Below, one piece after another: positions 6,058 through 30,448 of a DNA stretch of 46,585 nucleotides. Within the stretch, counting starts at the first letter, position 1, and every line of letters begins with the position of its first letter. A program made the position numbers and the translations under genes. The notes under the pieces were generated by a model that had not been told where the DNA came from, ran no database searches, and saw only the letters and a list, made by a program, of their open reading frames with translations. This stretch comes from a virus, in the IMG/VR virus record IMGVR_UViG_3300045933_000150, positions 1 to 46,585 of that record. One strand, written 5' to 3'.

Positions 6058-6083
6058 GCGGCTGAAGGCGGAAGGGAAGGACA

Positions 6084-9677: not shown

Positions 9678-9946
9678 GGCTGAAGAAAAAGCCTGAATTG
9701 GTTGGAACGGCGGCGCTGCCGATTTACGAGCAGCACGGATTCCTATTTCGGCAGTCGCTTGGATCGGGAGAGTTTGAAGGGCAGCCGTTCCAATTCTCGC
9801 TCAACATCAATGGCGACGCTTTCTTTGTCGAGAGCGAGGGCCGTTACTTCTCGGTCAGCACTCGGGAAATCGTTGCTCAAGTCATGCAACAGGTTTTCTT
9901 CCCGAACGGCAAGCGCCGCCGGCAGCGCGCGAGGAGGATCAAGTGA
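9674..9946 (+). CDS. Hypothetical protein, 90 aa
   Basis: GTG at 9674 (GTGA overlap). After a basic start (RLKKKPEL) there are several beta strands: HGFLFRQ, FQFSLNINGDAFFVESEG, YFSVSTREI. A helix (VAQVMQQVFF) and a very basic tail (KRRRQRARRIK) follow. The tail would suit nucleic-acid binding. No family is recognised. Codon use is slightly less G+C-rich than in the neighbours. Confidence 0.6.
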   Translation: MRLKKKPELVGTAALPIYEQHGFLFRQSLGSGEFEGQPFQFSLNINGDAFFVESEGRYFSVSTREIVAQVMQQVFFPNGKRRRQRARRIK

Positions 9947-10419
9947 CCGACGACGAGCGCCTGGCGGAGATCGAACGGCGGGAGAAGGCGGCCACGCCGG
10001 GTGAGTGGAAGTTCAAGGTAGAGCCGGGCGGCGGCTGCGATGAAGGGCGGATTGTCTCTGTGCCGCTGCACGGACCGCCACCGAAGCCGGGCTGGCAAGA
10101 GACTGGCATAGTGTGCGATTTCGGCAGCAGCGAATCTTATGACCAATGCGCGGGCTCGCCGCCGGAACCTCCGGACTTGGATTTCATTCTCCACGCCCGC
10201 GCCGACGTGCCCTGGCTGGTCGCGCGGCTGAAGGCGGCACTGCCTGACTTGGCGAAGGCACACCGGGAGATCTACGCCTGGCAGACTGCGGTCGCCGAGC
10301 TCGCCGACAAGGACCCAATGCCGCGGGGCTATCAGATCGTGCGGCACTTGGGGGCGAGGGTTGCCGAGCTGGTTGATGACCCGGCCTTCGACGCCGACGG
10401 CGGCGGGGGGCGCGGGTGA
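9943..10419 (+). CDS. Conserved phage early protein, 158 aa (ATPGxW / DVPWL type)
   Basis: GTG at 9943. Two blocks place it in a common phage family: ATPGEWKFKVEP near residues 17-28, and DLDFILHARADVPWLVARL at about 75-93. In this family the second block (D-F-I-x-H-A-R-x-D-V-P-W-L) is the signature. The C-terminal part is helical and ends in a Gly-rich run. The family function is unknown to me; members occur in accessory regions of many temperate phages. Confidence 0.7.
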   Translation: MTDDERLAEIERREKAATPGEWKFKVEPGGGCDEGRIVSVPLHGPPPKPGWQETGIVCDFGSSESYDQCAGSPPEPPDLDFILHARADVPWLVARLKAALPDLAKAHREIYAWQTAVAELADKDPMPRGYQIVRHLGARVAELVDDPAFDADGGGGRG

Positions 10420-10724
10420 GCCGAGTAGGTCCGAGCCTCAAGCCGCCGCGGTGGCTGCCGCACGCTGAAAGGCGAAGCCGCGAACGATTCCCCGGAGTGG
10501 ATCTTGTGAAGCTCTTCTTCTCGGCACGGAGACCCACGAAGAAAGAACGAGCTTGGATCAAGGGCACCTGCCCTGGATCCGGCAAGTACATGAGCCGCAG
10601 CTTTGCCGGCCGGTACTTTCTCGTGGCGCGCGACGCGGTGTTTGTCATGCAACCGCCGGAGACGGTGGTGACGGTCTTAAGACTGCGTGCCGCGGCCGGC
10701 GCGGCGAAGGAGGGGAATGGCTGA
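10416..10724 (+). CDS. Hypothetical basic protein, 102 aa
   Basis: GTG at 10416. The N-terminal half is basic (HAERRSRERFPGVDL), then GKYMSRSFAGRYFLVARDAV and PPETVVTVLRL. The alternation of a helix with three strands ending in a TVxT-V-L-R strand resembles small RelE/BrnT-like folds and phage proteins of that shape. The match is too loose to call a toxin, and no antitoxin-like partner is adjacent. It overlaps the next gene by 8 bases. Confidence 0.55.
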   Translation: MSRVGPSLKPPRWLPHAERRSRERFPGVDLVKLFFSARRPTKKERAWIKGTCPGSGKYMSRSFAGRYFLVARDAVFVMQPPETVVTVLRLRAAAGAAKEGNG

Positions 10725-11088: not shown

Positions 11089-11356
11089 CCCGCTACACAA
11101 GACCCTCGCCGAGCTCGCCGTCTTCGTCGCCCGCGCCGTCAACGAGAACGAGGCCGCCGCTGCGGCGCGTATCGCCGAGCGCTTGCGGAAACGCCTCCGC
11201 GGCGGCTACGGGACCCGCACCTGCGCCTACTGCGGGCTCACCTGGCGGCCGAAGTCGGAGAACCCGCGGCGCTGCGGGTGCTGTAACTCGAGGTACTGGC
11301 GGGGGCGGGCGGTGCCGCGCGCTGTGGAAGGGCCTACTGTTCCTTCGCCCGCTTGA
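11078..11356 (+). CDS. Zinc-ribbon protein, 92 aa, last gene of left operon
   Basis: ATG at 11078. An N-terminal helix (KTLAELAVFVARAVNENEAA) leads to CAYCG (about residues 54-58) and CGCCNSRYW (about 71-79), a classical ribbon. Its end overlaps the end of the convergent 893-aa gene by 23 bases. No terminator is visible between the two operons, so they may transcribe into each other. Role unknown. Confidence 0.6.
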   Translation: MPSSPLHKTLAELAVFVARAVNENEAAAAARIAERLRKRLRGGYGTRTCAYCGLTWRPKSENPRRCGCCNSRYWRGRAVPRAVEGPTVPSPA

Positions 11357-14015
11357 GCTGCCGCTCGACCGCGGTCAGGAGCTTCAGGAGTTCCGTCGCC
11401 CGTGGTGACTTGAGCCCCGCCTCGTCCTTCGGGGCGTAGGGCCTCTCGAAGATCCTGACTTCCCCGGTGCGCCTGAGGGGCTCGGCTTCTCGGCGAAGGT
11501 TCTCGGCCAGGGTGCGGAGCTTGTCGACCTCGTCCTGGCTCACCACCCGGACACCCGAGAGTAGCTGGAGCAGGTTCTGGAGGTTCCCGCGGCGCGGGTC
11601 GGTGTCGGCGACGATGTCGGAGACCTGGTTCGCGGTCCGCTGGAGCCGGGAGGTCGGGAGGTTCCGGAGGATGAAGAGCGCCAGTGGGTCCGCCTCGAAG
11701 CGCTTCTGCCCACTCGGGAGAGTCTTCTCCCTGAAGCCGATGGCCTCCCGGAGGCCGGGGATCTTCCCGAGGATCGGTTCCGCGCGGTCCATGTCGAGGA
11801 TGTCGCGGCCGGTGAAGAGGTCCTTCCCCAGCGCCGCCTCGGCCGGGGCTCGCCAGACCGGGGCCACCTGCTGCCCGATCCGCTTCAGGATCTCGGCCCC
11901 GCCGCCGAGGACGCCACCAGCGCCACCCGTGGGGTCGAACTTAGAGAGCTCCTCGAGCGGAGACCCGAAGCCGGTCAGGAACTGCTCTTCGCCCTGAGGA
12001 CCAGCCCAGATCGGGATGGCGGCCGTTCGCTTCACCTGCTCGGGGATCGGGCCTTCGGCCCCCGGGCCAGGGACGGTAGCACGGGTGAGGGCGGCCATCT
12101 TCCCCGGGTTCTCGAAGTACTCCGTCATGACCTTGGGGATGACCTTCCGGGTCCACGGATAAAAAAGGAAGATACGCTTCGCGAGGATCTTCTCGGCGCC
12201 CGTCAGGTCCGAGTAGTCGAAGAGGTTCTTCTTGACCGAGGCCGCCGCCTCGACATCCGAGAGCCCCTCGGCCTTCTTCGCGAGGAAGTGCCAGACCCTG
12301 GTGAAGTTCTCGGAGAAGGTGGCGTAGGCGCGCCCGGCCTTCCCGGCCTTCGGGAGCCGCCTTGCGAGGGCCGGGAGCTCCCCCTGGATGAAGCGGGCGC
12401 CGCTCCCCCGGAGGATCCCTAGGGCCTCGTAGAAGGCCAGGACCGAGGGGTTTTTGAGCGCCTGGACCGCGAGCCTGAACGCCGGCCCGATCGTCTTCAG
12501 CATGGCTCCCGTCGAGGTCCCAAGCCAGGAAAGCATGGTGTCTGACACCACGTTTCGGACGTGGTAGGCCGGGAAGGGCACCGTCAGGGCACCGCGGTAG
12601 AGGGCCAGGGTCTTGTCGAGGACCTGGGTAAGGCCCTGGATCGCTTCTGGGGACGTGATCCGATCCGCCATGCCCAGGAGCTCGTCCGCGATCTCGGGCG
12701 GGATCCCCTTCCCGGCGAAGCGCGTGGCAACCTCCGGTGTGAGCGCGGCCCGGCTCAGTAGCTCCTCAGCCGGGACCAGACCCTCCCGCATGGGCTCTCC
12801 GAACTTCTGGGCGGCGGCCTGGAAGAGCTTCGCCATGGCGACGGCCTTCTCGCCGGAGGCTACCCGGGCGCCGATCTGGACCGCGGGGTCCTCAACGAAC
12901 CACTTCTTTCCGGCACCCAGCCGTTCCTCGAAGAGCTTGTTGAGGTCCCCAGTGTACTCCTCCAGGAGCTCCGGGAGTCGCCTTTCCTGGAAGCCCTGCT
13001 TGGTCGAGTACTTACGCGCGAGGTAGCTCCGGACGGTGCGCTCGTTCTTCGGGTCACTGAGCCAGCGGATGGCATCCTTCGAGAGAACGGTCCGTGGGAT
13101 GTAGCTCTTCGTCTCAGCACTGAGGGCCTTGACCGGGATCCCTGCGGCCTGCTCGCGGGCGAGCTGCTTCGAGAGGATGTCCTGGGTCTTGAGAGTGAAG
13201 GGCGCCGCAGAACCCAGAGTCTCAGCCTCCCGGAAAAGCCTCGAAGCCGCCTCCTCCCTTGTGCCCCCCGCCACGGCCTCGTCGATGTCCTTCCCCAGGC
13301 TCTCCGCGATCTCCCGGCCGGCGATCTCACCCTCCCGGACCTCACGGCCCGCGAAACGCTCGGCCAGGGGCTCAAGGGCCTCCGACTTCCCGTAGCGCGG
13401 ATCGAAGAGCTTCCTGGCCCCGGTTCCGAAGCGCGATCCGGCCAGAGCCTGCCCGCCCCGCGCCAGGGCACCAATGACTGGGGCTCCACGGATGACCGGC
13501 TGGCCAGCGACCGAGAGCAGCGCCCTTTGTCCAGCCTCCACCTGTTCGCGAGCCGTTGGGGCGAGAGCCGTGGGTACCCCGAGGCGCTTCGCCTGGCTCT
13601 CGGTACGTGCAAGGCGCTCCGTGAGCTCGAGGACTTCATCAGCCAGGCCAGCACGCTTCGCGGCCTCCGTCTCGAGCCTGAGCGCGGCCTCGGCCGCCTC
13701 GAGAGCCCCCTTCGACTTCCCGGCCGCGGCTGCCGCCTTACCGCCCTTGGTCAAGGTGCCTATACCAGTTACGTAGGAAAGTGGGTCGGTGGCGACCTCG
13801 GTGGCGAAGCCGGCCACGTCGCCCAGGTCGAACCCCGGCCTGTTGGGCTCGAGGAGTCCGATCCGTTCGAGCACTCGGCGGCCGGAGGCTTCCTCCTCCC
13901 CGGTGATGGCCTCGCGGATCTTCCGGCCCGGGTAGTCAAGCGTTCGGGCGAGGCGACGGAGAAGGCCGGCTTCCTCGATTTCGCGGGTGAGTTGGTCATC
14001 TCTTCTGGTCGGCAC
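11334..14015 (-). CDS. Large putative internal virion or ejection protein, 893 aa
   Basis: GTG start; last gene of the late operon. Helical and Ala-rich throughout, with membrane-active-looking Gly/Ala segments (about residues 75-100 and 165-200). Residues 471-495 (ALTVPFPAYHVRNVVSDTML) and 598-627 (FDYSDLTGAEKILAKRIFLF, then YPWTRKVIP) match a pattern I know from very large phage proteins: an alpha-helical domain ending in FDYSDLTxxEK...FxFYxWTR. Such proteins are packaged in the head and ejected with DNA in short-tailed phages. No peptidoglycan hydrolase motif is evident in it. The position after the other internal proteins supports the call. Confidence 0.65.
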   Translation of the reverse strand: MPTRRDDQLTREIEEAGLLRRLARTLDYPGRKIREAITGEEEASGRRVLERIGLLEPNRPGFDLGDVAGFATEVATDPLSYVTGIGTLTKGGKAAAAAGKSKGALEAAEAALRLETEAAKRAGLADEVLELTERLARTESQAKRLGVPTALAPTAREQVEAGQRALLSVAGQPVIRGAPVIGALARGGQALAGSRFGTGARKLFDPRYGKSEALEPLAERFAGREVREGEIAGREIAESLGKDIDEAVAGGTREEAASRLFREAETLGSAAPFTLKTQDILSKQLAREQAAGIPVKALSAETKSYIPRTVLSKDAIRWLSDPKNERTVRSYLARKYSTKQGFQERRLPELLEEYTGDLNKLFEERLGAGKKWFVEDPAVQIGARVASGEKAVAMAKLFQAAAQKFGEPMREGLVPAEELLSRAALTPEVATRFAGKGIPPEIADELLGMADRITSPEAIQGLTQVLDKTLALYRGALTVPFPAYHVRNVVSDTMLSWLGTSTGAMLKTIGPAFRLAVQALKNPSVLAFYEALGILRGSGARFIQGELPALARRLPKAGKAGRAYATFSENFTRVWHFLAKKAEGLSDVEAAASVKKNLFDYSDLTGAEKILAKRIFLFYPWTRKVIPKVMTEYFENPGKMAALTRATVPGPGAEGPIPEQVKRTAAIPIWAGPQGEEQFLTGFGSPLEELSKFDPTGGAGGVLGGGAEILKRIGQQVAPVWRAPAEAALGKDLFTGRDILDMDRAEPILGKIPGLREAIGFREKTLPSGQKRFEADPLALFILRNLPTSRLQRTANQVSDIVADTDPRRGNLQNLLQLLSGVRVVSQDEVDKLRTLAENLRREAEPLRRTGEVRIFERPYAPKDEAGLKSPRATELLKLLTAVERQLKRAKEQ

Positions 14016-17494: not shown

Positions 17495-17694
17495 CGCTTC
17501 GCCGCTTTCCGGTCCTCCATGAGGAGGCGCAACTCGCCCGCGATGTCGCGGAGGAGCTTGTCGAGGATGTCGATCGTGCTCTCGCGGGGGGCGCCCTCGT
17601 CGAGGATCTCAAGGCGAATCAGCCGAGCCACACGCTTCAGGTCATGGACGATGTCAAGGAGCCTGGCCTCGCGCCGCTCGTGGTCGTACCTCAT
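17491..17694 (-). CDS. Hypothetical helical protein, 67 aa
   Basis: Almost wholly helical and charged: EARLLDIVHDLKRVARLIRL, then ILDKLLRDIAGELRLLM. Probably a helical bundle or coiled coil. It overlaps the nozzle gene upstream and the S74-type gene downstream by 4 bases each, so it is made with the tail proteins. It may be an assembly factor; no direct evidence. Confidence 0.5.
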   Translation of the reverse strand: MRYDHERREARLLDIVHDLKRVARLIRLEILDEGAPRESTIDILDKLLRDIAGELRLLMEDRKAAKR

Positions 17695-19478
17695 GCCGAA
17701 CCTCCGAGCGCAACATCCTGCTCCCAGCCGCGGATGACGACCGGGGAGGTATTGTTGTTAGCAAACTCGTAGCGGAACTGGCGAGCCGAGGAACTGACAC
17801 GATTGCGGAAGACCGGGTCCACCATGTCGTACCCAAGCTGGATGTCGGTAGGGAAGTCCGAGTCGAGGAGCATCTTGATGTCGATCAGGGAGTCCTGAAG
17901 CTGGGGAACGAAGTCGACCATCAGCTCCCCGAGGATCTTCCAGCGGCTGGGCTCGTCGAGGTCGATCTTCCCGGATCGCCAGAGGAAGTCGATGACGTCG
18001 CCGTCGTCGGTGGTCCCCCCGTAGACCCCGGTCTTCCCGTTCCCGTCAGCAAAGCCGAGCGCCACCACGCGCTTCTTCGTCGTCCCGTCCGTCACCAACG
18101 CCGGGTAGGCAAGCGGGAAGGCGAAGGTCCAGGGCGACCAGACCGGGAACCCGACCTCCTCCGAGTAGCGGTAGAAGTAGACGAGGATCTTCTGGTTCGA
18201 CTGCTGGCCCGAGTCCGAGAAGCTCCAGAGGATGGCCCCCAGGTCATAGAGGTGGCAGGAGACACTGAAGCGGTCCCGGGCGAAGTTCCGGTTCACGATC
18301 CGTTCGTGGACGGGGCGCGAGATCGGGGTCGCCTGGGAGCCGTCGAAGACGTAGACCTCATCCTCCCCCAGGTAGTAGACAAGATCCCCGACCGCCTCTA
18401 CCGAGTGGTGGCCTACCGGACCCGAGCCCTCCCAGACCTTCCTGACGTAGATCGTGTCCTCGGAGTTTCCGTCGACCGCCCAGATCGACTTCCTTTTCCC
18501 GACGAAGAGGAGTCCGCGGTAAGCGAAGAGGGCGGTGATGGGATCCGAGTCCCCGGTCGAGCCGATGTCGACGAAGCCGACGATCGCGAAGGGCTTTCCG
18601 GGGGGGGTGAAGTAGAGGCGGTTCGGGAAGGCCGGGTCCCCGGCCGCAAACATGACGTCCGCCTGGTAGGTCATGAACTTGGGGATGGGGGCAATGCCAA
18701 TGGGAAGCGGGGCTGTCGAGGTCGAGGAGACATCCGAGTCCTTGACGTTGTCGTTGACGACGAAGGTCCCGGAGCCCGGGGTATGGTTGGCCTCGAGTGA
18801 AAAGTACCAGAGGTTCTCCCCGGCCGAGACCTTCCGGCGGTAGACCCTGACCTTGTCGACCCGGGTGTCCGAGGTGCGCTGGATCGTGATGTCGACCGAG
18901 GTGTTGAGGGCGTTGATCGCGTTCGGGGAGGAACTGGCGTTCGACTCCTGGCCCCAGGTGCTCGAGTAGTACGTGACCCGGTGCTCGTAGAGCCCGGTGA
19001 GGTTCCCTCCGGCGACGCTGGCCGAGAGGAGGTTCGGGACCGTGGGGAGTTCGGCGTTGAAGACCGAGATCCCGTCCGTGACCTTGAAGGTCGAGCCGTC
19101 ACAGAAGTAGACCCGGTTATTGACCCCGCTGAAGTCCACCGGCTCGCCGACAAGAGAACCGTCCGCCGAGAGTTCGACGGCACTGGCGGAGAGGGCGTTG
19201 ATCGAGACTGCGAAGAGCTTCCGTCCGACCTTCTCGAGGGTGACCGTGGTGCCGTCGTTCTTGACGTAGTCGAACATCCCGAGGGGGGTGCCCTCGTCGA
19301 AGAAGCTCGCGATCTCCTGGAACCCGGCACGCTTCTCGACCGGGCCTTCCCCCAGGACCACGTTCCGGCAGTCCTCGGCGTCGGTGACCGGGTTGAAGGC
19401 CGAGTCATAGGCATTGTTGATCCCGCGGAAAGCGGCCTTCCCGCTCTGGCCCTGGGCTGGGAACTTGACAGTCGGCAT
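17691..19478 (-). CDS. Tail nozzle or stabilisation-like protein, 595 aa
   Basis: The start PTVKFPAQGQSGKAAFRGIN is followed by a region (DAEDCRNVVLGEGPVEKRAG) typical of phage proteins that form the tail nozzle, where a short N-terminal strand leads into a beta-propeller-like series. Repeated beta blades follow (ALFAYRGLLFVGKRKSIWAV; DLVYYLGEDEVYVFDGS). This matches podovirus tail-tube B / stabilisation-type proteins by layout, size and gene order after the adaptor. It would form the tip of the short tail. Confidence 0.65.
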   Translation of the reverse strand: MPTVKFPAQGQSGKAAFRGINNAYDSAFNPVTDAEDCRNVVLGEGPVEKRAGFQEIASFFDEGTPLGMFDYVKNDGTTVTLEKVGRKLFAVSINALSASAVELSADGSLVGEPVDFSGVNNRVYFCDGSTFKVTDGISVFNAELPTVPNLLSASVAGGNLTGLYEHRVTYYSSTWGQESNASSSPNAINALNTSVDITIQRTSDTRVDKVRVYRRKVSAGENLWYFSLEANHTPGSGTFVVNDNVKDSDVSSTSTAPLPIGIAPIPKFMTYQADVMFAAGDPAFPNRLYFTPPGKPFAIVGFVDIGSTGDSDPITALFAYRGLLFVGKRKSIWAVDGNSEDTIYVRKVWEGSGPVGHHSVEAVGDLVYYLGEDEVYVFDGSQATPISRPVHERIVNRNFARDRFSVSCHLYDLGAILWSFSDSGQQSNQKILVYFYRYSEEVGFPVWSPWTFAFPLAYPALVTDGTTKKRVVALGFADGNGKTGVYGGTTDDGDVIDFLWRSGKIDLDEPSRWKILGELMVDFVPQLQDSLIDIKMLLDSDFPTDIQLGYDMVDPVFRNRVSSSARQFRYEFANNNTSPVVIRGWEQDVALGGSA

Positions 19479-20113
19479 CAGTCCTCGTCGACGTGGATGT
19501 ACTGGGCTCCCGCCCGCTGCCTGACCGCCGCCCCCTCCTCCATGCGTTTCATGTCGGCCTGGTACTCACCCTCCCAGGCGGAGAAGTCACGCTGCTCGGA
19601 GAGCATGGCGTCCCTGGCGGCCTGAAGAACCATGAAGCGGTGGAACTCGGAGGGGATCTCCGAGATGTCGCCATCGGCCGAGAGGTCGGCGAGCTTCTTT
19701 ATGTACCAGACCCGGAGCTCGAAGGCCGCGGTGGGGGCGACGACTCCGAGGAAGTTCCCGCGGAGGTAGAAGAGGGTGTCCTGCGGGGTTTCGCGCTTCT
19801 CCTCGTGGCGCCTGGCAAAGGTGACGAGTCTCGCCCTGACCGGGTGGTCGCCCTCGTAGACCCGCTCGGCGTGGAGGATGTCCTTCACCTTCGAGGGGAA
19901 GTTCCCCATGTCGAACTCGTGGGAGTCCTTGTTGATCTCGACCGAGACGTCCTGGCAGAGGGCAAAGTAGGTCTCGTCCTGGGCGTCAATGAGGTTCTGG
20001 GCGACCTCCTGGGCACGGTTCAAGAGAGTGCCCTTCGTGGTCCCTGGCCAGCGCTTCTCGTCCCGGTCGTCGACATAGATCCCGAAGAGGAGCTTCATTT
20101 CTGCGAAGGTCAT
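19478..20113 (-). CDS. Head-tail adaptor (tail tubular A-like), 211 aa
   Basis: Helical N terminus with TLLNRAQEVAQNLIDAQDET, followed by YFALCQDVSVEINKDSHEFD, DMGNFPSKVKDILHAERVYE, and a C-terminal RVWYIKKLADLS/EIPSEFHRFMV block. This order (helices, a strand ending in D-x-P/N-x-D, a W-Y strand, then EIPxEFHxxxV) is the pattern of phage adaptor proteins that ring the portal. It overlaps the nozzle gene by one base, as adaptor and nozzle genes usually adjoin. The call is by pattern. Confidence 0.65.
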   Translation of the reverse strand: MTFAEMKLLFGIYVDDRDEKRWPGTTKGTLLNRAQEVAQNLIDAQDETYFALCQDVSVEINKDSHEFDMGNFPSKVKDILHAERVYEGDHPVRARLVTFARRHEEKRETPQDTLFYLRGNFLGVVAPTAAFELRVWYIKKLADLSADGDISEIPSEFHRFMVLQAARDAMLSEQRDFSAWEGEYQADMKRMEEGAAVRQRAGAQYIHVDED

Positions 20114-23100
20114 GTTCCTGTGATTCCTCCTCCCGTGAGGTTCGAGGTGCCGGTGATCCCGGATCCGGTGACGTTCGAGGTCCCAGAGATCCCGCTCCCG
20201 GTGACGACCGGCTCCGTACAGTCAAGGCCGTCGCCCTCTGAGGGATCGACCGGGGGCTCGGGTTCAGGCTCCGCCTCGTCGGTTGTGAGGCCACTGAAGA
20301 GCCAAGCCGAGTGCCGCCAGTCCGTGGCCCCAACAAGGATCGTGTTCGGAGCCGGAGGGACCGTGAGGCAGGGGTGCATGCCCGAGGACCGGAAGCGATT
20401 GTTGAAGCTCGGGAGTCCCGGCGGCGGGGTCGGTGGGCCGGTGGGGGTGATCTCCCCCGTGTAAGCGGTCGGGGCGGACTCGTTCGGGACCGGCGAGGCG
20501 GTGTCGATGGCCGAGACCCGGTAGCGGTAGATGTGGTCGTTCTGGACCGAGTTGTCGGTATGGTTCGAGGCCACCGGGGAGGCAATCAGGATCTCGGGCT
20601 GCCAGACGGCGCCAAGCTTCTCGGCCCGGTAGACCCGGTAGCCGGCGAGGTCGGGTTCGGTGTTGTTGTTCCAGTCAAGGGACACGGTCGCGTCCCCTGG
20701 GGTGGCCAGGATCGGACTCGGAGTCGGGGTCGCCGGGGCGGTCAAATCGACAACGCCCACGAAAGCCTCGTGGGAATCGCCGCGACGAATCTTGACCTCG
20801 ATGCCGTTGAGAGTCCCCCCGAACCAGGTACCGTCGTCGATGGCGGCGAGGGTGGGGTAGACGGTTACCGTATTGGCGGTGGCGTAGAGGAAGGCGACGA
20901 AGTTCCTGGTCGTCGAGGAGGTCGGGCCGTTGAACTCGGTCCGGTAGACCCCGATCAGGGAGTCGTCGTAGCCGTAGGTGTTCTCGGGCGGGTAGAGGAT
21001 GGGAGTCGCGGAATCGCCGACCCCAGCATCGAGGAAGCCCTGGACGATCTGCTTCTCGGGGGTCGACGGCCGGATCATGATCTGTCGGAGCTTCGCGTTC
21101 GCGGCCTTCGACCAGGTACAGTCGGTGCCGTCAGAGTTACTCGGGACCGGGGGGACCTGGGTCTGCAGCTGGAAGAGCTGGGACCTCTTTCCGCCCTTCG
21201 TGGCGTGGGCATCGACCGTGGTGATGAGATCGTCCCAGATGAGGAGGATGGGGTAGGTGTACCCGGGGATCGTAGTGCCCGTCAGGTTCGTCACCAGGAA
21301 GTGGCGCTTGTAGCGGGAGCACTTGGTCGACCAGTAGAACTGGGCCAGGTTGAGGACGTGGTAGACGTAGCTCCCGGAGGCTCCCTGGGTAGGGCCGAAG
21401 GCCGTGGGGGTGAAGTTCCAAGCGGCGACTGACTGGAGGTGCGGGAGGTCGTCAGGCTCGGCGTTGACGGGCGGCCCGACATCCTTCGGCCAGCGCTGGC
21501 CCCCGTAGTTCGAGTAGCCGTTCGTGCCGGTAGGGGAGGTACGGGTACCGAAGAAGGTATCGGGATCGTTGACCCCGGTCTCGCCATCCTCGTAGGCTTG
21601 CTGAAAGCTAAAGCGTCGGTCGACCGCCGTGTCGTCCTCTGCGGCGTTGTAGATCCGGATCGTGTTATGGGCGAGGCCGCGCTTGTAGTAGCTCCAGTGG
21701 TGGCCCTGGCGAGAGGGGTTCGTTGGTGCCGAGAGGTCCTTGTAGGTGGTGTCGTCGCCGACATTGTGGTGCCCGGCATCAATCACTAGAGGCTCGAAGT
21801 CGCAGGCGATCTGAAAGTGCCCGGCCTCGCGGTGCGAGTGCCCTCCGGTGAAATACTTCGGGTGCGCCCAGCACATGGCCCAGCTCTCGCGGCCCGACTG
21901 CTTCCAGCCCGTCCGGACGCAGACATGCCCGGCGTTCACGAACTCGCGGTAGTAGTTCCCGCCGCCGTAGCCAGCGATCGTGGGTTCGGTGGCCGGGACT
22001 GCGGGGTTGTAGTAGAGGAGGGCGTGAAGGAGGTACGGACCCCACATCGACTGGTTGGCCTCGTCCCGCATCTCGGTCACCAGCCACTGGCACGCTTGAC
22101 CGTAGAGCGAGGAGTCCCGGTTCGCGATCTGGAGGAGGTGGACCTGGGTCATGGCCTGGAACTGGTAGCCGCCGTCCCCGGTGGTCACGTCCCCCTGCTG
22201 GAAGAAGCTCCAGTCCGCGCGCCAGTGCCAGAGTAGCCAGTGCCCCTGGAGCTTCCACCACGGTTCCGAATCCCACCATGAGGTCGCGAGCCCAGTCTCC
22301 ATGGCCGGGAACATGCGGACGTAGAAGCCCTCGTTGACGACGTTGTAGCCGAGGGAGCCGCAGCCCTTGTGAGTCCCGCCGTCCGAGTTCCCGAAGTGGC
22401 GGAAGACCGCGAAGTAGCTGTCGGCGTCAGTGCCGGCGTAGCGCCAGTCCATGACGTTGTCGATGTCGACGACCGCAGCGTTGTTCCTCGTGAGGTCGTT
22501 CGTGACCCCGTCCCCGGTCGTGAAGTCCTCCATGATCCCGATGAGGGAGAACTGGGTGAAGTTCAGGTCCCCGTGCGCCGTCCCCCAGATGAACTCGGTG
22601 TCGCTTCCGTCGATCCCCTGCCAGTCGACCCCGACGTTCGGGTTGTCCTTGATGAGGTTATAGCAGGTGGTCCGGATCGTGTGGCGGTTTGCGGTCGAGA
22701 AGTGGGTGTAGAGGAGCGTGTATCCCGTCGCCATCGACTGGATCGCAGTCCGGATGAAGCCCTTCGAGGTCGAGGTCGTGTAGGTGAAGTTCGCGAGGTC
22801 CATGACCCCGGCCATGGCGTGCGTGCGGTAGGCGGTATTCCCATCGAGCAGATAGACGAGACAGATATTCGCCATCTCCTCGACGTCACGGTTCCGGTAG
22901 TAGGTCGTCGGGCGCGTGAGGACGAAGTCCGCCCGGCCCTTCATGGTGGCGTAGTCGGCCGACCAGGAGGGGTTCGTCTTCCGGGAGTTGATGGTGGCGA
23001 AGGAGAGCGAGTGGTCGGAAGCGTTCGAGGAAGCCGTACAGGTTGCTCCCGAGGTTCCACCCGTCAGCGTGAGGCCAGAGGTTGCCGGCGACCCGCTCTC

Positions 23101-23316
23101 GGGCTCGTAAAGCAGGGGAGACGTCCCGTTCGCGGTGTTTGAGACTACCTTCCCCGATCCCCCCGACCACGAGACGGTCTCCCCATGTTGAAACGGTCCA
23201 TTCGTGATGGCCCCGATCGACACCTGCTGGCGATTAGAGATCCAGAGCCGTGGGTGCTTCCCCGAGACCGGCTTCTTCCAGGGGAGGAATGAACTGGGGT
23301 TGACGCTACTCGGCAT
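20110..23316 (-). CDS. Tailspike or depolymerase with heparinase II/III-like domain and FN3, 1068 aa
   Basis: ATG at 23316, directly after the previous gene's stop. Residues about 120-440 are helical with many Trp (alpha/alpha toroid-like). Residues 490-560 carry GGHSHREAGHFQIACDFEPL, VIDAGHH and LAHNTIRI, the block of heparinase II/III C-terminal domains (H493/H495, H500, D513, H550-N551). A beta-sandwich follows to about 850, then a fibronectin-III-like domain (865-960: LDWNNNTEPDLAGYRVYRAE) and a C-terminal repeat of GSGITGTSN units (1039-1068). Such enzymes break uronic-acid polysaccharides by elimination. In a phage tail cluster the likely role is to digest host capsule or exopolysaccharide. 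The substrate cannot be read from the sequence. Confidence 0.7.
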   Translation of the reverse strand: MPSSVNPSSFLPWKKPVSGKHPRLWISNRQQVSIGAITNGPFQHGETVSWSGGSGKVVSNTANGTSPLLYEPESGSPATSGLTLTGGTSGATCTASSNASDHSLSFATINSRKTNPSWSADYATMKGRADFVLTRPTTYYRNRDVEEMANICLVYLLDGNTAYRTHAMAGVMDLANFTYTTSTSKGFIRTAIQSMATGYTLLYTHFSTANRHTIRTTCYNLIKDNPNVGVDWQGIDGSDTEFIWGTAHGDLNFTQFSLIGIMEDFTTGDGVTNDLTRNNAAVVDIDNVMDWRYAGTDADSYFAVFRHFGNSDGGTHKGCGSLGYNVVNEGFYVRMFPAMETGLATSWWDSEPWWKLQGHWLLWHWRADWSFFQQGDVTTGDGGYQFQAMTQVHLLQIANRDSSLYGQACQWLVTEMRDEANQSMWGPYLLHALLYYNPAVPATEPTIAGYGGGNYYREFVNAGHVCVRTGWKQSGRESWAMCWAHPKYFTGGHSHREAGHFQIACDFEPLVIDAGHHNVGDDTTYKDLSAPTNPSRQGHHWSYYKRGLAHNTIRIYNAAEDDTAVDRRFSFQQAYEDGETGVNDPDTFFGTRTSPTGTNGYSNYGGQRWPKDVGPPVNAEPDDLPHLQSVAAWNFTPTAFGPTQGASGSYVYHVLNLAQFYWSTKCSRYKRHFLVTNLTGTTIPGYTYPILLIWDDLITTVDAHATKGGKRSQLFQLQTQVPPVPSNSDGTDCTWSKAANAKLRQIMIRPSTPEKQIVQGFLDAGVGDSATPILYPPENTYGYDDSLIGVYRTEFNGPTSSTTRNFVAFLYATANTVTVYPTLAAIDDGTWFGGTLNGIEVKIRRGDSHEAFVGVVDLTAPATPTPSPILATPGDATVSLDWNNNTEPDLAGYRVYRAEKLGAVWQPEILIASPVASNHTDNSVQNDHIYRYRVSAIDTASPVPNESAPTAYTGEITPTGPPTPPPGLPSFNNRFRSSGMHPCLTVPPAPNTILVGATDWRHSAWLFSGLTTDEAEPEPEPPVDPSEGDGLDCTEPVVTGSGISGTSNVTGSGITGTSNLTGGGITGT
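20113..20202 (-). repeat. Short tandem repeat at the end of the tailspike gene
   Basis: The last 30 codons encode three imperfect copies of a 10-residue unit of the form VTGSGITGTSN. The DNA shows GTGACG/CCGGA patterns every 30 bases. It may form a beta-stem or trimer cap, or be a recombination site for tailspike exchange. Confidence 0.5.
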
Positions 23317-23317
23317 G

Positions 23318-24046
23318 TCACGGCCCGGCGACGAGCTTGTCCCGGGTGAAGGAGGTGTTGGCGACTTCCGAGAGCGTGGCCTTACAGATGACGCTGCCAG
23401 CGTCGTTGTGGATCGAGAGCAGACTCGGAGTGTCGATGAGCTTGTTTCGCATGGCCATGTAGAGGAGCATGATCGCCTGGGCGACGGTCGGGGTAGCCGG
23501 TGGCTGGGCCTGGGCAAGCTCTGCGAGCGTGTCGTCAAGGAGCCCAGCCGAGAGCTCGTCGACCGCAGAAGAAGCAATGGCCGTTGCCGTGAAGACGTCC
23601 GTCGCCATGGCCCCCACCGAGGCGTCGATCCGCCCCGAGACCAGGGCCGCCGGCAGCCTTGCCAGGATGTTCGTGAGATCGGTGCCGATGGTCGTCAGGG
23701 AATAGCAGGTCGTGTAGATGAAGCTGTTCGCCACCTTGGCGGTCACCACCACCCAGTCGGCTCCCGAGGCGAAGGCCGCGTCGGGAATGTCGAAGCGGTA
23801 GACCCCGGGCTTGTTGGTCGAGTCCGCCTCCCGCCACCCACCGTCCGCGTGCGCGGCATCGATCGCTGCCAAGCTCGCCATGGTGATCGTGGTGATGGTG
23901 CTCCCCTGGCGCCAGTAGCTCCCGGTCACGGCACTATGGGCAACCCCCGTGGTCTCGACGTTATTCGCGACGTTACGGAGGAGGACCGGGATCGAGACGT
24001 CGGTCGAACCCGCGCGGACCGAAAGAGAGATCAGCTTGTCGGCCAT
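23318..24046 (-). CDS. Conserved phage tail protein, 242 aa
   Basis: N-terminal beta domain with SVRAGSTDVSIPVLLRN and GVAHSAVTGSYWRQGS, then GGWREADSTNKPGVYRFDIP followed by AFASGADWVVVTAKV. This is the well-known phage tail module in which a GGxxEVDxTNxPGxYRLDxP loop follows a short repetitive strand. The C-terminal half is helical with a VAQAIMLLYMAMRNK segment common at the end of this family. It probably joins the tailspike or fibres to the tail. It precedes the tailspike gene. Confidence 0.7.
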   Translation of the reverse strand: MADKLISLSVRAGSTDVSIPVLLRNVANNVETTGVAHSAVTGSYWRQGSTITTITMASLAAIDAAHADGGWREADSTNKPGVYRFDIPDAAFASGADWVVVTAKVANSFIYTTCYSLTTIGTDLTNILARLPAALVSGRIDASVGAMATDVFTATAIASSAVDELSAGLLDDTLAELAQAQPPATPTVAQAIMLLYMAMRNKLIDTPSLLSIHNDAGSVICKATLSEVANTSFTRDKLVAGP

Positions 24047-24047
24047 G

Positions 24048-25013
24048 TCAGTTCATGCTCGTGAAGGCGCCAAAACCAAGTTCCTCGGGCTTTATCAAGA
24101 GCGCCTGGGCACTGGCACTCAGGACGTTCGCGACCGATCGTCCGGCAGGATAAAGGAAGGCGAAAGGCTTCTTCGACCAGCGGAGGACCTGGTCGGCGCT
24201 CCAGGCGCCCCGCATACAGGAAACCAGCGCCAGGTTTCCGCCGAAGAAGCGATCGGAGGAGGTCCCACCTCCAGAAAGGAAGTTTGACCCGATCCTGACT
24301 TCCTCCGCCGGGTTGAAGCCTCCAGTGCCGTTTGCGGGGTTGGCGCCGGTAGTCCGGCTGCCATCGATATAGATGTCGAGCTTCCGGGTCGTGTCGAGGG
24401 TCATGGCGTAGGTGTGCCAGAGACCATCGTCGACGACGACATTCGAGGCCGGGGAGTTTGAGGAGCCGGCACCCGTCAATCGGATGTTGGTGGTGATCTC
24501 GCCGGGGTCCGAGGCGTTCGAGCCCTCGCGGACGTAGATATTGAGGGAGTCGCTTCCTCCCACCGTTCCCTGACTCCAGATGTACTTGAACTGAGACCCC
24601 GTGTTTGACGGCAGCTGGAGAACGATGAGGATCGTGAACTCCGGGGTCACCGTCGCCTGGTCCGCTTCGTACTCGAAGAGGTCCACTGCCATCCGATCAT
24701 CGATCTCATCGAAGAGAAGCGTCCGCCCGTAGCGCCCGGTGGTCCAGGCCGGGGTGGAAGTCGCTCCCGACCCGAAGGCATGGCGCGAGTAGCCCGAGAC
24801 ATCGCGGAAGCGATCCGAAGCTCCCTCCCAGAAGGGGAGAACGAGATGCGGCCGTCGCCTCCAGGCCCAGCGCCAGTCAGGGTCCACGCGCGAGACCGCC
24901 ACCGGCCAGAAGCGCGGCTTGCGCTCGAGGATGTGGAAGACCGGGACCTCGATGAAGAAGTCGGTGACCGGAGGAGGGGGGCCACTTTCGCCGAAGAAGA
25001 TGAGGAGACTCAT
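24048..25013 (-). CDS. Tail protein with LamG-like lectin domain, 321 aa
   Basis: ATG at 25013 was chosen (ATGA overlap with the previous gene); a longer upstream frame lacks support. Residues about 65-275 form a concanavalin/LamG jelly-roll: LLFDEIDDRMAVDLFEYEAD, FTILIVLQLPS, LWHTYAMTLDTTRKLDIYID and FFGGNLALVSCMRGAWSADQ. The N terminus is Pro-rich. Such domains bind sugars on the host surface, so an adhesin role in the tail is likely. A second LamG-type protein is encoded just upstream. Confidence 0.7.
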   Translation of the reverse strand: MSLLIFFGESGPPPPVTDFFIEVPVFHILERKPRFWPVAVSRVDPDWRWAWRRRPHLVLPFWEGASDRFRDVSGYSRHAFGSGATSTPAWTTGRYGRTLLFDEIDDRMAVDLFEYEADQATVTPEFTILIVLQLPSNTGSQFKYIWSQGTVGGSDSLNIYVREGSNASDPGEITTNIRLTGAGSSNSPASNVVVDDGLWHTYAMTLDTTRKLDIYIDGSRTTGANPANGTGGFNPAEEVRIGSNFLSGGGTSSDRFFGGNLALVSCMRGAWSADQVLRWSKKPFAFLYPAGRSVANVLSASAQALLIKPEELGFGAFTSMN

Positions 25014-25735
25014 ATCCCTACCCCCATGAGAGCGAGCGTCCCCTTCTTCGGAGGCCCGGTAGGTGCGCCGCCGGCGGCGGGGATATAGATCCGCCGCCCG
25101 CCCATACTCCACGGGATCGGCGGCCCGTCCTCGGTCGCCCAGGTGCCAGCGACGGTCAGCGTCCGGCCCTGGCCCGAGTAGTCAACCTCGTCATCCGCCG
25201 TCGAGAGGAGCGGATACCAAGCGTTCAAGTTGGCGAGGCGCTTCGGTAGATACTGCCGCATCTCCTGCACGATCTCGGCGGCCGTGAGGACCGCGTTGTA
25301 CTCCTTGACTGCCGCGGCGCAGCCGTTGAGTGAGTCGAAGGCGTCGGTCACTCGGCAGCCGATGCCCACCCCGGCGGTCGCATCATTAGAGCCGCCGCCG
25401 TGAGTAGTGTCCTGCACCCCGTTCAGGTACACGATCAGGTCGCTCGCGCCCGTTCCCTGGCGCACCAGGGCCACGTGGTACCAGGTCCCGACCGTCAGCG
25501 AAGAGCCGTTGGGACCATCCGCCGAGGGGTTGTAGCTGATGAGCGTCGTGCCGGTGCCATTAGTGCCGACGTACCAGTGCCCATCGAGCCCGTTGTCCGC
25601 CTCGACCGACAAAAAACAGGAGTAGTCGTTGGTATCGACGCTAATCTTGAACCACCCCATCACCGTGTACGTGTTGCCGGTGAGGTTCGTCGTTCGCCTG
25701 AGCGTGTCCCCGGATACGTCCTTGCGGACCGCCAT
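25010..25735 (-). CDS. Tail protein with LamG-like lectin domain, 241 aa
   Basis: Residues 10-165 give the LamG pattern: TYTVMGWFKISVDTNDYSCF, TVGTWYHVALVRQG, DLIVYLNGVQDTTHGG and CAAAVKEYNAVLTAAEIVQE. The C-terminal part ends with a Pro/Gly-rich stretch. Together with the next gene it forms a pair of concanavalin-like adhesins that may recognise the polysaccharide digested by the tailspike. Coupled to the next gene by ATGA. Confidence 0.7.
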   Translation of the reverse strand: MAVRKDVSGDTLRRTTNLTGNTYTVMGWFKISVDTNDYSCFLSVEADNGLDGHWYVGTNGTGTTLISYNPSADGPNGSSLTVGTWYHVALVRQGTGASDLIVYLNGVQDTTHGGGSNDATAGVGIGCRVTDAFDSLNGCAAAVKEYNAVLTAAEIVQEMRQYLPKRLANLNAWYPLLSTADDEVDYSGQGRTLTVAGTWATEDGPPIPWSMGGRRIYIPAAGGAPTGPPKKGTLALMGVGI

Positions 25736-26248: not shown

Positions 26249-26502
26249 TACGCTATCTCGAACCTCCTACGCACGACCCAGACAAGGAGCCGCGCCTTCT
26301 GCTTGGCGGTCAGGGCGCTACGCGCCGGCTGCGGGATGGCGGTGTTGAAGCTCGTGGCATTGTCGTCGGCCCACTGATCGGCGGCGTTCACCGCCGCCCG
26401 CAGATCCGCCTTCGAGATTGGGATGTTCTCGAGGTTGTCCCTGGCCGAGCGCATGAAATCAGCCCATACGTCGAAGCGATCCTGATCGGATAGAACAGCC
26501 AT
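26248..26502 (-). CDS. Conserved small phage protein, 84 aa
   Basis: Entirely helical: LSDQDRFDVWADFMRSARDN, then KADLRAAVNAADQWADDNAT, then LTAKQKARLLVWVVRRRFE. This is the layout of a small, common phage tail-region protein (R-xxVW-xxFMR start, AAVNAxDxW middle). The function of that family is unknown to me; it lies in the tail cluster here and overlaps both neighbours by one base. Confidence 0.65.
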   Translation of the reverse strand: MAVLSDQDRFDVWADFMRSARDNLENIPISKADLRAAVNAADQWADDNATSFNTAIPQPARSALTAKQKARLLVWVVRRRFEIA

Positions 26503-29051
26503 CAGCTCTCCACGGTGTAGTAAGAAACGGTGACATCCAGGCTTCCACTGGTCGGGGCGCCACTCGTAATTCTCAGATCTTCGTTGTCAGCACCGACCCC
26601 GACGATGCCGCTTCCGTCCCCGGTGTTGAACCCACCGCCAGCCGGGATCCCTGGGTGAGCCGCCACGACTCCGGTCGTGGTCGGGGTGTTCGCCGTCCCA
26701 AAGCCGATCACCACCGAGACGTTGACCGAGGTGGCGTTGTGAAGGGTGACGAGGACCCGGGTGACTACGATCTTGAGACCCGCCCCGACGGTGACGATCG
26801 CCGTATCGGTCTGGGATGCGGTGTAGTTGGCCCGGACCGTGACTACGTTCGGATGTCCGCCGATGACCCAGGGGACTCCTGCGCGGTTCGCGTACCAGTC
26901 CGTCCGGTCATTAGCCGCCACCGCGGTCGGGTTTGTCCCGTGAGCGATGGCCTTGTGGCCGACCTTGACCGGGTTCCCGGCATCGGCCGCATCGTGAGCG
27001 ACGTTGCCGCCAGCGGGCAGCACCGACTGGTCAGAAGCAACCGCCACCGAGATCGAGTTCGCCATCGTCTGCTGGCCTTCGTTCGGCAAGCTAACGATGT
27101 CGACATCGCCGATATTGTTGGTGCCAGTCGGAATCGCATTGATCGAGACTGTCCCATCCACCGTCAAGGACCCACCGCCATCGGCAACGTTCACGGCCCC
27201 GCTGGTCGTCGTCCAGATCCTGGTAGCGTCCCCATCCGCAGAGACCGCGGTGGGGGTGGCAGCCGATCCGTAACCTCCGATCAGAACCGGGTTCCCGGCC
27301 ACAGCGGCATCGTGCGCCGCATCGCCGACCACTTCGTTGGTGTTGGTCCCCGCCGCGAGAGTGACGTTCGGGAGGGTAAGGACATCGACGTCGCCGATGT
27401 TGTTGGTCCCCGCTGGCAGGGCCGGCAGGGTCAGGACATCCACGTCCCCGATATTGTTCGTACCGGCTGGGATCGCCGCGTCGATGGTCGTCGAGGTGTA
27501 GAGCCTCCCCGAGGCGTTGACGTTGAGGGTGGAGTTGTCCCCGTCAGCCCCCGATCCCACGGCGGCCGTGTCGCGCCTGACTGCCAGGGCCAGGACCCCC
27601 ACATCGCCAGAGGCATGCGGGTCATCCTCCGCTTTCCCGAGCGCCGTGGCCCCAGTCCCGGGGACCACCGAAAGCACATCCACATCACCGATGTTGTTCG
27701 TACCCGCAGGGATCGCAGGCAAAGTCAGGACGTCGACATCCCCGATGTTGTTGGTGCCCGCCGGAATGGCTGGCAAGCTGAGTACGTCAACGTCACCGAT
27801 GTTGTTCGTCCCAGCAGGAAGGGCCGCGTCTACCGTGGTCGAGGTGTAGAGCCGGCCAACCGAGTTGACGTTAAGTGTCGCCCGATCGCCATCGGCATCG
27901 ACCCCAGACGCCGCGGTATCGCGCCTGACGGCCCCGGCCAGGGTCAGCTTGTCGGCCGTGACATGGGCAGTGTCCTCGTCGTATTGGGTCCCACCCCCGA
28001 CCGCGAGCTCCGCCCCGGCAGCGTCCCTCAAGTTGACGTGGAGGGCACGGTTCTGGGTGGCACGGATGGCGCCCGTCTGGTGCTCAGTCAGGGTGCTCGG
28101 GGAGGTGTCGTCCCGGTAGCCCTGGATCGGGGTTCCCGAGGTGGTCCCGGCCGTGAAGGTGGCCTGGTCAGTCTGAGCGGTTCCACCAGAACCAGCCCCC
28201 GCCTTGATGTTGACCTTCAGGTTCCCCAGGGCGTCGAAGATCGGCGCGTGGTAGTCGCCATCGGTGTCGACCGGGGAAGTGTCCGCATCCCGCCTCACCC
28301 CCAGCGCCAGGACCCCGACATCGCCCGTGGTATGAGCCGCGTCCTCGGCCTTCCCGAGAGCCGTGGCGCCGGTCCCGGGGACGACCGAGAGGACGTCGAC
28401 ATCGCCAATATTGTTTGTACCCGCCGGCAAAGCCGGAAGCGTCAAGACATCAACGTCGCCGATATTATTCGTGCCAGCAGGTAGCGCCGGGAGGGTCAGG
28501 ACATCGACATCGCCGATGTTGTTCGAGCCCGAGGGAATGGTCCCCGTGAGGACCACAGCCGCGCAGCCGATCGACCCCACGATCGAGACCACGATGGTCC
28601 CGGAGGTGAAAGCCGAACACCGGACCCGGAACTGGAGTTGCCCGGCAACCCCAAAGTTCCAGTTGTCGTTCGTGGTAGCAGAGGTAACGACCCCACCCCC
28701 GGCCGTGCCACGGCCGCCAACCGCGTACCAGTTGGTGCCATCCGTGGTTCCCTCAAACTGGACGGTCGCCACCCAGGTCCCCGTGAGCTGAACCGACGCG
28801 GTCCCGAGGCCCCTGGCATCGAGGGTCGCAGCCTGGCCGGACGCGGTCAGCGATCCGGAGGCCGATCGGTTCTCGGGCGTCACCGCCCGCGTGACATCGA
28901 CATCAAGCCCGTTCGTAGAATCGCCCGAGATCGCGGCCGAGGAGTCAGAGGTACCATCTACCAGCTTCACCTTCTGGAAGTGGTTGCCGCCGACATCGTC
29001 CGTGGCGATGACCGCTCCGGTCCCGGGAGTCCAATTGAGATTGTCAGCCAT
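26502..29051 (-). CDS. Repeat-bearing tail fibre protein, 849 aa
   Basis: N terminus with VIATDDVGGNHFQKVKLVDG, a motif of phage tail appendage proteins. Residues 172-221, 411-460, 527-560 and 640-655 carry 9 copies of GTNNIGDVDV. Between them larger modules are duplicated (VPGTGATALGKAED and RLYTSTTxDAA). Residues after 760 form a beta-rich end domain (VVTVRANYTASQTDTAIVTV). The pattern of short beta repeats suits an extended fibre shaft. The repeats use different synonymous codons, so the amino-acid sequence seems selected. It sits upstream of the lectin and tailspike genes. Confidence 0.7.
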   Translation of the reverse strand: MADNLNWTPGTGAVIATDDVGGNHFQKVKLVDGTSDSSAAISGDSTNGLDVDVTRAVTPENRSASGSLTASGQAATLDARGLGTASVQLTGTWVATVQFEGTTDGTNWYAVGGRGTAGGGVVTSATTNDNWNFGVAGQLQFRVRCSAFTSGTIVVSIVGSIGCAAVVLTGTIPSGSNNIGDVDVLTLPALPAGTNNIGDVDVLTLPALPAGTNNIGDVDVLSVVPGTGATALGKAEDAAHTTGDVGVLALGVRRDADTSPVDTDGDYHAPIFDALGNLKVNIKAGAGSGGTAQTDQATFTAGTTSGTPIQGYRDDTSPSTLTEHQTGAIRATQNRALHVNLRDAAGAELAVGGGTQYDEDTAHVTADKLTLAGAVRRDTAASGVDADGDRATLNVNSVGRLYTSTTVDAALPAGTNNIGDVDVLSLPAIPAGTNNIGDVDVLTLPAIPAGTNNIGDVDVLSVVPGTGATALGKAEDDPHASGDVGVLALAVRRDTAAVGSGADGDNSTLNVNASGRLYTSTTIDAAIPAGTNNIGDVDVLTLPALPAGTNNIGDVDVLTLPNVTLAAGTNTNEVVGDAAHDAAVAGNPVLIGGYGSAATPTAVSADGDATRIWTTTSGAVNVADGGGSLTVDGTVSINAIPTGTNNIGDVDIVSLPNEGQQTMANSISVAVASDQSVLPAGGNVAHDAADAGNPVKVGHKAIAHGTNPTAVAANDRTDWYANRAGVPWVIGGHPNVVTVRANYTASQTDTAIVTVGAGLKIVVTRVLVTLHNATSVNVSVVIGFGTANTPTTTGVVAAHPGIPAGGGFNTGDGSGIVGVGADNEDLRITSGAPTSGSLDVTVSYYTVES
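27087..28538 (-). repeat. Nine-copy coding repeat GTNNIGDVDV in the fibre gene
   Basis: Units of 16-17 codons in four clusters: 28389-28538 (3 copies), 27672-27821 (3), 27372-27473 (2), 27087-27134 (1). Copies differ at third positions but hardly at the protein level. The first two clusters are followed by the same 45-codon module, showing block duplication. Confidence 0.8.
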
Positions 29052-29556: not shown

Positions 29557-30003
29557 TCAGTTCGAAGCCTGGATCGTGATAACCACCTTCACGTTCGTGG
29601 GTGCGAGCGGACCCGTGGAGGTCAAGGTGAAGGGCTCACTCATCGCCCAGGCAGAGGTGTTATTGACCGCATCCCTCGCCTGAACTGCGACCTTGTAGAC
29701 CCCGGCCGGCTGCCCGGTGAAGAGCACCGTGGCACTGACCGAGTTCGCCCCGACGACGAGCGGCGCCGTGATGGTCTTGATGGCGATGACCCCCGAGGGG
29801 TTCACGACCACCGGTGGGAAGAGCGCGATCACGGCGTCCTTCAGGGCGGCGCCACCGACAGGGGATTCCGCCTGGTCGAAGGTGATCGAGGATGAGACCC
29901 CGACCGGGGGCGGTGGCGTCTGGGCATCGGCCTCGAGGCTGATCGCGACGCATGCCCAAGCAGCGATGTTGAGGGCCGTGAGGATCTTGAGGACACGGTT
30001 CAC
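29557..30003 (-). CDS. Secreted protein with Ig/FN3-like domain, 148 aa
   Basis: Residues 1-28 form a classical signal peptide: Arg/Lys start (MNRVLKI), hydrophobic core (LTALNIAAWACVAISL), and EADAQ with a likely signal-peptidase cut after ADA. The mature part has Pro-rich start, then a beta sandwich (KTITAPLVVGANSVSATVLF, GVYKVAVQARDAVNNTSAWA) of FN3 type. A signal peptide is unusual in a structural cluster. It lies directly after the holin-like gene. It could modify the host surface in superinfection, or work in lysis. No catalytic motif is seen. Confidence 0.6.
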   Translation of the reverse strand: MNRVLKILTALNIAAWACVAISLEADAQTPPPPVGVSSSITFDQAESPVGGAALKDAVIALFPPVVVNPSGVIAIKTITAPLVVGANSVSATVLFTGQPAGVYKVAVQARDAVNNTSAWAMSEPFTLTSTGPLAPTNVKVVITIQASN

Positions 30004-30182
30004 TTGAGTGGCTCCGTGGTAATGGCCCGGAGGATCGCCATGATGAGGGCCGCACCGACGACGGCTCCGTTCAGGATCTTGGGATCAGTCACTACCTCGG
30101 TCAGGTAGTTCGCACTGGCCGCGAGCCCCATGAGGATCGCGACAATGATGGTCCGGCTCGAGGAGATCGGTTTACCGTTCAT
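30000..30182 (-). CDS. Holin-like small membrane protein, 60 aa
   Basis: Two hydrophobic helices: residues about 10-27 (RTIIVAILMGLAASANYL) and 37-53 (LNGAVVGAALIMAILRAI), separated by a short polar turn with Asp/Lys. The N terminus and C terminus are charged. Its size and topology fit small class II-type holins. It overlaps the lipoprotein gene upstream by 4 bases and the secreted protein gene downstream by 4 bases, which forms a lysis-like cassette. A signature family is not recognised. Confidence 0.5.
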   Translation of the reverse strand: MNGKPISSSRTIIVAILMGLAASANYLTEVVTDPKILNGAVVGAALIMAILRAITTEPLK

Positions 30183-30448
30183 GTGGGGTTCGGGGGGTTG
30201 GGGGCCGGGGTTGGCTTCGGCTGCCCGAGCTTGAGCTTGGCAATGACGCCAGTCAGGACCGCACCGCCACCGACCACTGCGGCGGCGATGAGGTCACCGA
30301 TCGAGGTGGCGTCCTTGGCCTTCTCGACGAAGGCGACTCGGCCTGACTCAAGCGGCGACGGGCCTCCGTCTTCCTGTGGATCGGTCAAGAGCTTGCAGCC
30401 AGCCAGCGCTCCGAGGAGCATGGCAGCACAGAGTAGCTTCTTCATCAT
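30179..30448 (-). CDS. Lipoprotein, possible outer-spanin-like protein, 89 aa
   Basis: MMKKLLCAAMLLGALAGC has a lysine start, hydrophobic core and a lipobox (LAGC) with lipidated Cys18. The mature protein is short, with a helical stretch (GDLIAAAVVGGGAVLTGVIA) that may itself be membrane-active, and ends in a Pro-rich tail (KPTPAPNPPNPT). Pro-rich lipoproteins are usual for o-spanins (Rz1-type), but the extra hydrophobic region is not. The start follows the previous gene's stop directly. Confidence 0.5.
   Translation of the reverse strand: MMKKLLCAAMLLGALAGCKLLTDPQEDGGPSPLESGRVAFVEKAKDATSIGDLIAAAVVGGGAVLTGVIAKLKLGQPKPTPAPNPPNPT
30185..30210 (+). promoter_or_regulatory. G-quadruplex-capable run on the + strand
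   Basis: GGGG, GGGGGG, GGGGG and GGGG runs with 2-3 base loops meet the usual G4 pattern. They code (on the other strand) for the Pro-rich end of the lipoprotein, so the runs can be explained by the codons for Pro. Confidence 0.35.

Follow-up and report, generated by a model that had tools for sequence, protein, structure and literature searches.

A heparinase-II-like protein encoded at the tailspike position of a podovirus-like phage genome

Phage depolymerases have been described as elongated, mostly beta-helical homotrimers (review, PMC5380687). Two podovirus examples, gp17 of Arthrobacter phage Jasmine and the GH28 protein of ctLwi270, are right-handed beta-helix tailspikes (PF13229, PF12708/PF00295). 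A different architecture, an alpha/alpha toroid with an antiparallel beta-sheet domain, is that of heparinase II (polysaccharide lyase family 21, PL21; HepB of Pedobacter, 2fuq), which uses His202, Tyr257 and His406 in catalysis and Glu205 as the neutralizer (PMC12088678). We describe here a protein, P0001, whose gene sits in a structural module of the kind that houses those beta-helix tailspikes, and which has instead the predicted toroid and beta-sheet architecture of heparinase II. Its gene lies in a metagenomic virus record from IMG/VR (IMGVR_UViG_3300045933_000150), the whole of which, 46,585 nucleotides (nt), was analyzed as the window.

The open frame of 1068 amino acids (aa) begins with an ATG at position 23316 and its stop codon ends at 20110. 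The original prediction, made from the sequence alone, had placed a tailspike with a heparinase II/III-like fold at 20110-23316; these coordinates are right, with the coding sequence on the minus strand. Homology to heparinase II, and with it the fold, is near certain, and the description that fits P0001 best is that of a heparinase-II-like protein in tailspike position. The interpretation that we favor, with a probability of about 0.6, is that a temperate podovirus-like phage carries it in association with the virion as a depolymerase of capsule or exopolysaccharide, with a catalytic part derived from a bacterial lyase of the heparinase-II type.

A profile built from bacterial relatives matched P0001 in hmmsearch with E=9e-28 (92 bits), and the best decoy among 300 shuffled sequences and the other open reading frames of the window scored 4.5 bits. 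Profile E-values are somewhat favored because the relatives were chosen through a motif that they share with P0001; the margin is still large. Alignment of the protein to the same profile by HHalign (E=5e-20) extended over 585 columns and covered both enzyme halves. The C-terminal half alone (residues 440–860) matched the profile with E=6.5e-25 and the toroid half alone weakly, with E=0.006. Among PDB sequences searched by phmmer, heparinase II (2fuq) was the sole molecule matched, with E=2e-4 when the domain alone was used. The NCBIfam model of HepB (NF045571) gave E=3e-7 and 28.7 bits, under its curated cut-off of 600 bits. The proposed check against the heparinase II/III family (PF07940, Hepar_II_III_C) returned a match under the gathering score of 24 bits (13.6 bits for the whole protein, 15.9 for the domain only). 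PF07940 (domain E=0.0094) and DUF4962 (E=0.0037) occur in the correct order, both under their cut-offs. Of the 45 members of the relatives' alignment, 42 match PF07940 at E<=0.01, P0001 not being one of them.

A motif-led tblastn scan across 84,980 genomes of bacteria and archaea supplied the relatives, 77 proteins of 22–31% identity, some matching over both halves; with P0001 as the query, a first genome scan returned none. They belong mainly to Paenibacillus, Pedobacter and other Bacteroidota, with some from Acidobacteriota, Verrucomicrobiota and Planctomycetota, and most carry HepII_C and PF07940 domains. From these comparisons we conclude that P0001 and bacterial heparinase II (PL21) are homologues across both enzyme halves. 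It should not be filed as a PL21 member, because the curated cut-off is not reached, HepII_C is not detected and the catalytic tyrosine is out of register. Identity to heparinase II and its bacterial relatives is about 20–23%. That the match reflects a chance motif, that the protein is an ordinary beta-helix tailspike or that the viral contig contains misassembled bacterial DNA is hardly credible: the Pfam matches by themselves are under cut-offs and the record is metagenomic, but the profile score against decoys already refutes chance at the sequence level, the structural model lacks a beta-helix, and the third-position G+C of the gene (0.85) is like that of its neighbors (0.78–0.90), with packed gene boundaries.

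An AlphaFold model of the protein, computed with the alignment of 45 sequences, had a predicted template-modeling score (pTM) of 0.68 and a mean predicted local distance difference test score (pLDDT) of 58.5. It consists of helical hairpins (residues 106–435), beta sheets (464–860), the strands of a fibronectin type III (FN3) domain (893–954) and a low-confidence tail. A fold search of the PDB with this model (Foldseek) ranked heparinase II first, with E=5e-26 and a TM score of 0.72 on the target, followed by lyases of families PL15, PL35, PL17, PL39, PL33 and PL12. P0001 shares with these toroid lyases the overall fold, as predicted, and a putative His/Tyr and metal-site plan, and heparinase II is the closest both by sequence and by structure. 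No beta-helix appeared in the model or in its PDB fold search. The structure prediction that had been suggested as a check on the proposed fold thus gave an alpha/alpha toroid with a beta-sheet domain and no right-handed beta-helix, and together with the profiles it bears out the proposal. The model supports, rather than proves, an alpha/alpha toroid with an antiparallel beta-sheet domain. The toroid would span residues ~106–440 (21997..23001, minus strand), where the model hairpins, HHalign and the sub-threshold DUF4962 match coincide, and it includes the anticipated Trp-rich helical segment (residues ~347–369). The beta-sheet domain of the heparinase II/III C-terminal type would span residues ~463–846 (20779..21930, minus strand), as indicated by the matches of the C-terminal half to the bacterial profile, to 2fuq and, under cut-off, to PF07940.

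Outside this core, the protein resembles heparinase II at its N-terminal edge and departs from it elsewhere. An HPRLW motif at residues 21–25 (23242..23256, minus strand) corresponds to the N-terminal edge of heparinase-II-like enzymes; HPRL is kept in at least 90% of the bacterial relatives and is found also in P0002 and L004 from viral contigs. After it comes a beta-rich insertion of residues ~30–105 (23002..23229, minus strand), recognized as an alignment gap in the bacterial relatives and as strands in the model, for which tblastn found no phage match. At the other end, homology to the bacterial enzymes stops at about the start of HepII_C (PF18675). This domain is present in 40 of the 45 members of the relatives' alignment and was not detected in P0001, where an FN3 domain comes next (residues ~860–955; 20452..20739, minus strand). 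On sequence grounds HepII_C appears to have been replaced by FN3. The FN3 domain had been foreseen and is real, with a match to the Fn3-like PDB entry 3mpc (E=5e-4), and among phage records it resembles minor tail proteins of Gordonia phages by tblastn. The predicted terminal repeats were also found by Tandem Repeats Finder, as 2.3 copies of a 33-bp unit encoding Gly/Ser/Thr-rich sequence (20131..20206, minus strand). Inspection of the N-terminus, MPSSVNPSSFLPWKKPVSGKHPRLW, showed neither a hydrophobic signal nor an apparent signal peptide.

The window encodes a podovirus-type capsid protein, a P22-like portal, a terminase, an SU10-type adaptor and, at 45212-46102, an integrase. The genes are ordered as terminase, portal, scaffold-like gene, capsid, small and lysis-like genes, repeat protein, two LamG genes, fiber-like gene, P0001, SU10 adaptor and gp10-like hub. 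The fiber-like structural protein (23318..24046, minus strand; BLASTP E=4e-14 to a protein of MW202621) is encoded immediately upstream, its TGA ending 1 nt before the P0001 ATG. Downstream, the P0001 stop overlaps, as ATGA, the start of the SU10-type head-tail adaptor (19478..20113, minus strand; PF24175 E=5.7e-11). Next is an internal virion or P22 gp10-like tail hub protein (17691..19478, minus strand; phrog_3287, phrog_511, phrog_8040), called gp10-like by its position beside the adaptor, as in ctEqG8 and ctLwi270. Both the portal (E=6e-47) and the capsid protein have homologues in phage Jasmine, where the beta-helix tailspike and a GDSL esterase are encoded in the interval between the capsid and SU10 adaptor genes. 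By synteny, P0001 occupies the slot of the Jasmine tailspike and belongs to the module in which ctLwi270, at another place, has its beta-helix protein; this is positional evidence and not proof. Given this position in the virion module and its structural neighbors, we regard a role as a virion-associated depolymerase as likely.

Both LamG/ConA-like proteins that the original prediction had put next to the gene were confirmed by PF13385 (25010..25735, E=7.9e-16, and 24048..25112, E=5.7e-7, both minus strand), but the fiber-like gene separates them from P0001. Their grouping with the lyase into a polysaccharide-targeting set is plausible: ctLwi270 pairs adjacent LamG and GH28 beta-helix genes, though between portal and capsid protein.

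Relatives of the lyase part are scarce among phages. A tblastn search of 50,697 phage records with P0001 detected no relative of this part, the only matches being around the FN3 region. PHROGs contained no family that convincingly matches it, and at the sensitivity used IMG/VR returned no relatives from P0001 alone, from P0001 alignments or from the bacterial heparinase-II alignment. Fold relatives in BFVD were baculovirus ODV-E66-type proteins only, and the open-licence papers searched reported no phage tailspike with a heparinase-II-like fold. When bacterial heparinase-II sequences were used as queries, the 50,697 records gave one match, on an UNVERIFIED 10-kb fecal 'Bacteriophage sp.' scaffold. 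The heparinase-II-like gene on this scaffold (MT837828.1, 2511-4688) is complete and its product has 41% identity to a Paenibacillus enzyme; it was rejected as a phage homologue, the scaffold being probably bacterial DNA labeled as phage. The DNA motif was also present in 34 viral contigs, mostly as chance matches and real only in L004 and L029.

Phage-borne toroid lyases may nonetheless not be unique, because two IMG/VR contigs from one metagenome encode heparinase-II/III-like proteins with signal peptides: L029 (= L114, IMGVR_UViG_3300050821_001211) at 5025-7217 and L115 (IMGVR_UViG_3300050821_018577) at 7938-10529. The two are 48% identical to each other and about 29% to P0001 over the motif region. 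Like P0001 they have a Hepar_II_III_C-type core, with GH(S/A)H.DAGTFQ and AHN motifs; they differ in having a Sec-type signal, in the absence by alignment of the IDAG Asp and in having no obvious tail slot. P0002, which is among the signal-peptide heparinase-like proteins of viral contigs, matched the bacterial profile with E=3.5e-13. NAD-salvage-type genes and an integrase neighbor one of the L029 and L115 genes, and a large terminase is near the other; both products look like phage cargo enzymes. Could P0001 likewise be a cargo (moron) enzyme outside the particle, freed at lysis or secreted, that feeds or remodels the host? The occurrence of these related enzymes outside an obvious tail module speaks for it. 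We consider it quite improbable, since P0001 is without an apparent signal peptide, is tightly packed among structural genes with an ATGA overlap with the adaptor, has an FN3 domain like that of minor tail proteins and takes the position of the tailspike in Jasmine.

Much of the active site of heparinase II can be placed on P0001. The predicted motif block, HSHREAGHF (residues 493–501) with LAHNTI (548–553), is present and aligns with heparinase II. Across 44 relatives in the alignment, His493, equivalent to catalytic His406, and His495, at the position of metal ligand His408, are invariant (21832..21840, minus strand). Asp513 (21778..21780, minus strand) corresponds to Asp425 and is Asp in 41 relatives; in the related enzyme GAGase II, where the metal-site residues tested include His403, Asp405 and Asp421, the equivalent Asp421 is a metal ligand. 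His550 of the AHN motif (21667..21669, minus strand) is His in 42. The putative metal-site residues of the beta-sheet domain, His495, Asp513 and His550, thus stand at conserved columns. His248 (22573..22575, minus strand), aligned with catalytic His202, is His in 43 relatives. Asn252 is a possible alternative here; PL12, PL17 and PL35 make use of an Asn (PMC12088678). Splitting the relatives in order to mend the alignment of this region worsened it and was dropped.

Several observations weigh against a virion-attached, active enzyme of heparinase-II descent. The column of Tyr257, which is Tyr in 44 of 44 relatives, holds Ser321 in P0001 in a gap-free alignment by three MAFFT settings and HHalign; Asp410 of heparinase II is replaced by Glu497, and Glu205 has no clear equivalent. 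Model confidence is below 50 near His248 (residues 226–283). The AlphaFold alignment consists of heparinase-II relatives, which makes the model dependent on the homology; prediction without an alignment fails (pLDDT 32), yet gives helices followed by strands again, at a confidence too low for use. Lastly, no virion-binding or N-terminal anchor domain was recognized, so that the designation as a tailspike is upheld by gene position, by synteny with phages having beta-helix spikes and by an N-terminus without apparent signal peptide, but not by an attachment domain.

Because the catalytic tyrosine is out of register, enzymatic activity is uncertain. The protein might be a pseudo-enzyme, a virion protein that has kept the heparinase-II fold but no longer catalyzes and instead binds glycans as a receptor protein beside the lectin-like LamG proteins. 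Ser321, the unclear Glu205 equivalent and the two LamG-type proteins close by speak for this, but the equivalents of catalytic His406, of metal-site His408 and Asp425 and of the AHN His are kept at 20–23% overall identity, which is unusual for a dead enzyme, and Tyr324 lies on the same helix as Ser321, one turn later (Ser321-Tyr324, 22345..22356, minus strand). On balance we find loss of catalysis unlikely and judge that P0001 is probably an active lyase. The type of activity might also differ. Human dermatan sulfate (DS) epimerase has the same fold, and a C5-epimerase, or an enzyme that modifies uronic acids in some other way, was therefore considered; DS-epimerase 1 was among the fold matches (6hzn, E=8e-13), and epimerase and lyase have catalytic apparatus in common (PMC11848413). 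The nearest protein by sequence and structure is a lyase, heparinase II, however, and we think an epimerase very improbable.

Our preferred reading, a virion-associated depolymerase derived from a bacterial lyase, may be put in the following terms. A bacterial heparinase-II-type ancestor would have supplied the toroid and the antiparallel beta-sheet domain with its metal site, and its secretion signal and C-terminal domain would have been replaced by phage-type additions, namely the beta-rich insertion, FN3 and the Gly/Ser/Thr repeats. If PL21 is a guide, P0001 would accommodate its substrate, a uronic-acid polymer of the host surface, in the cleft that separates toroid and beta-sheet domain and cut it by beta-elimination with His493 and His248, Tyr324 perhaps standing in for Tyr257. 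The neighboring LamG proteins may assist glycan binding. Virion attachment, catalysis, substrate and LamG cooperation are all points that we infer. The fullest version, a working tailspike made from a captured metal-bearing toroid lyase with its tyrosine shifted by one helical turn, and a fold class new to phage depolymerases, is tentative, and we would put it a little short of even. If true, an unrelated enzyme that is typically a monomer could form the basis of a tailspike, and a uronic-acid polymer would be the predicted surface target on the host. The search for depolymerases would widen as well; a protein like P0001 would escape detection tools that rely on beta-helix training or Pfam cut-offs.

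Other genes of the structural module are of some interest in their own right. The N-terminal ~100 aa of the fiber-like protein also begin a 720-aa structural-module protein in MW202621 and lie within one in MW202627; they have no Pfam family and may be a shared virion anchor domain. At 11334-14015 the window encodes an 893-aa protein without a Pfam match, which closes the structural module, as a large protein does in related podoviruses, and is possibly an ejected internal virion protein. Inside the structural module, at 30000-30448, the window also encodes a small predicted lipoprotein and, directly after it, a small membrane protein; the pair resembles spanin/holin-type lysis genes. The 849-aa protein at 26502-29051, with repeated LPAGTNNIGDVDVLTLPA units (54-bp repeats), matches phrog_9224 (function unknown) and is probably a fiber or decoration protein.

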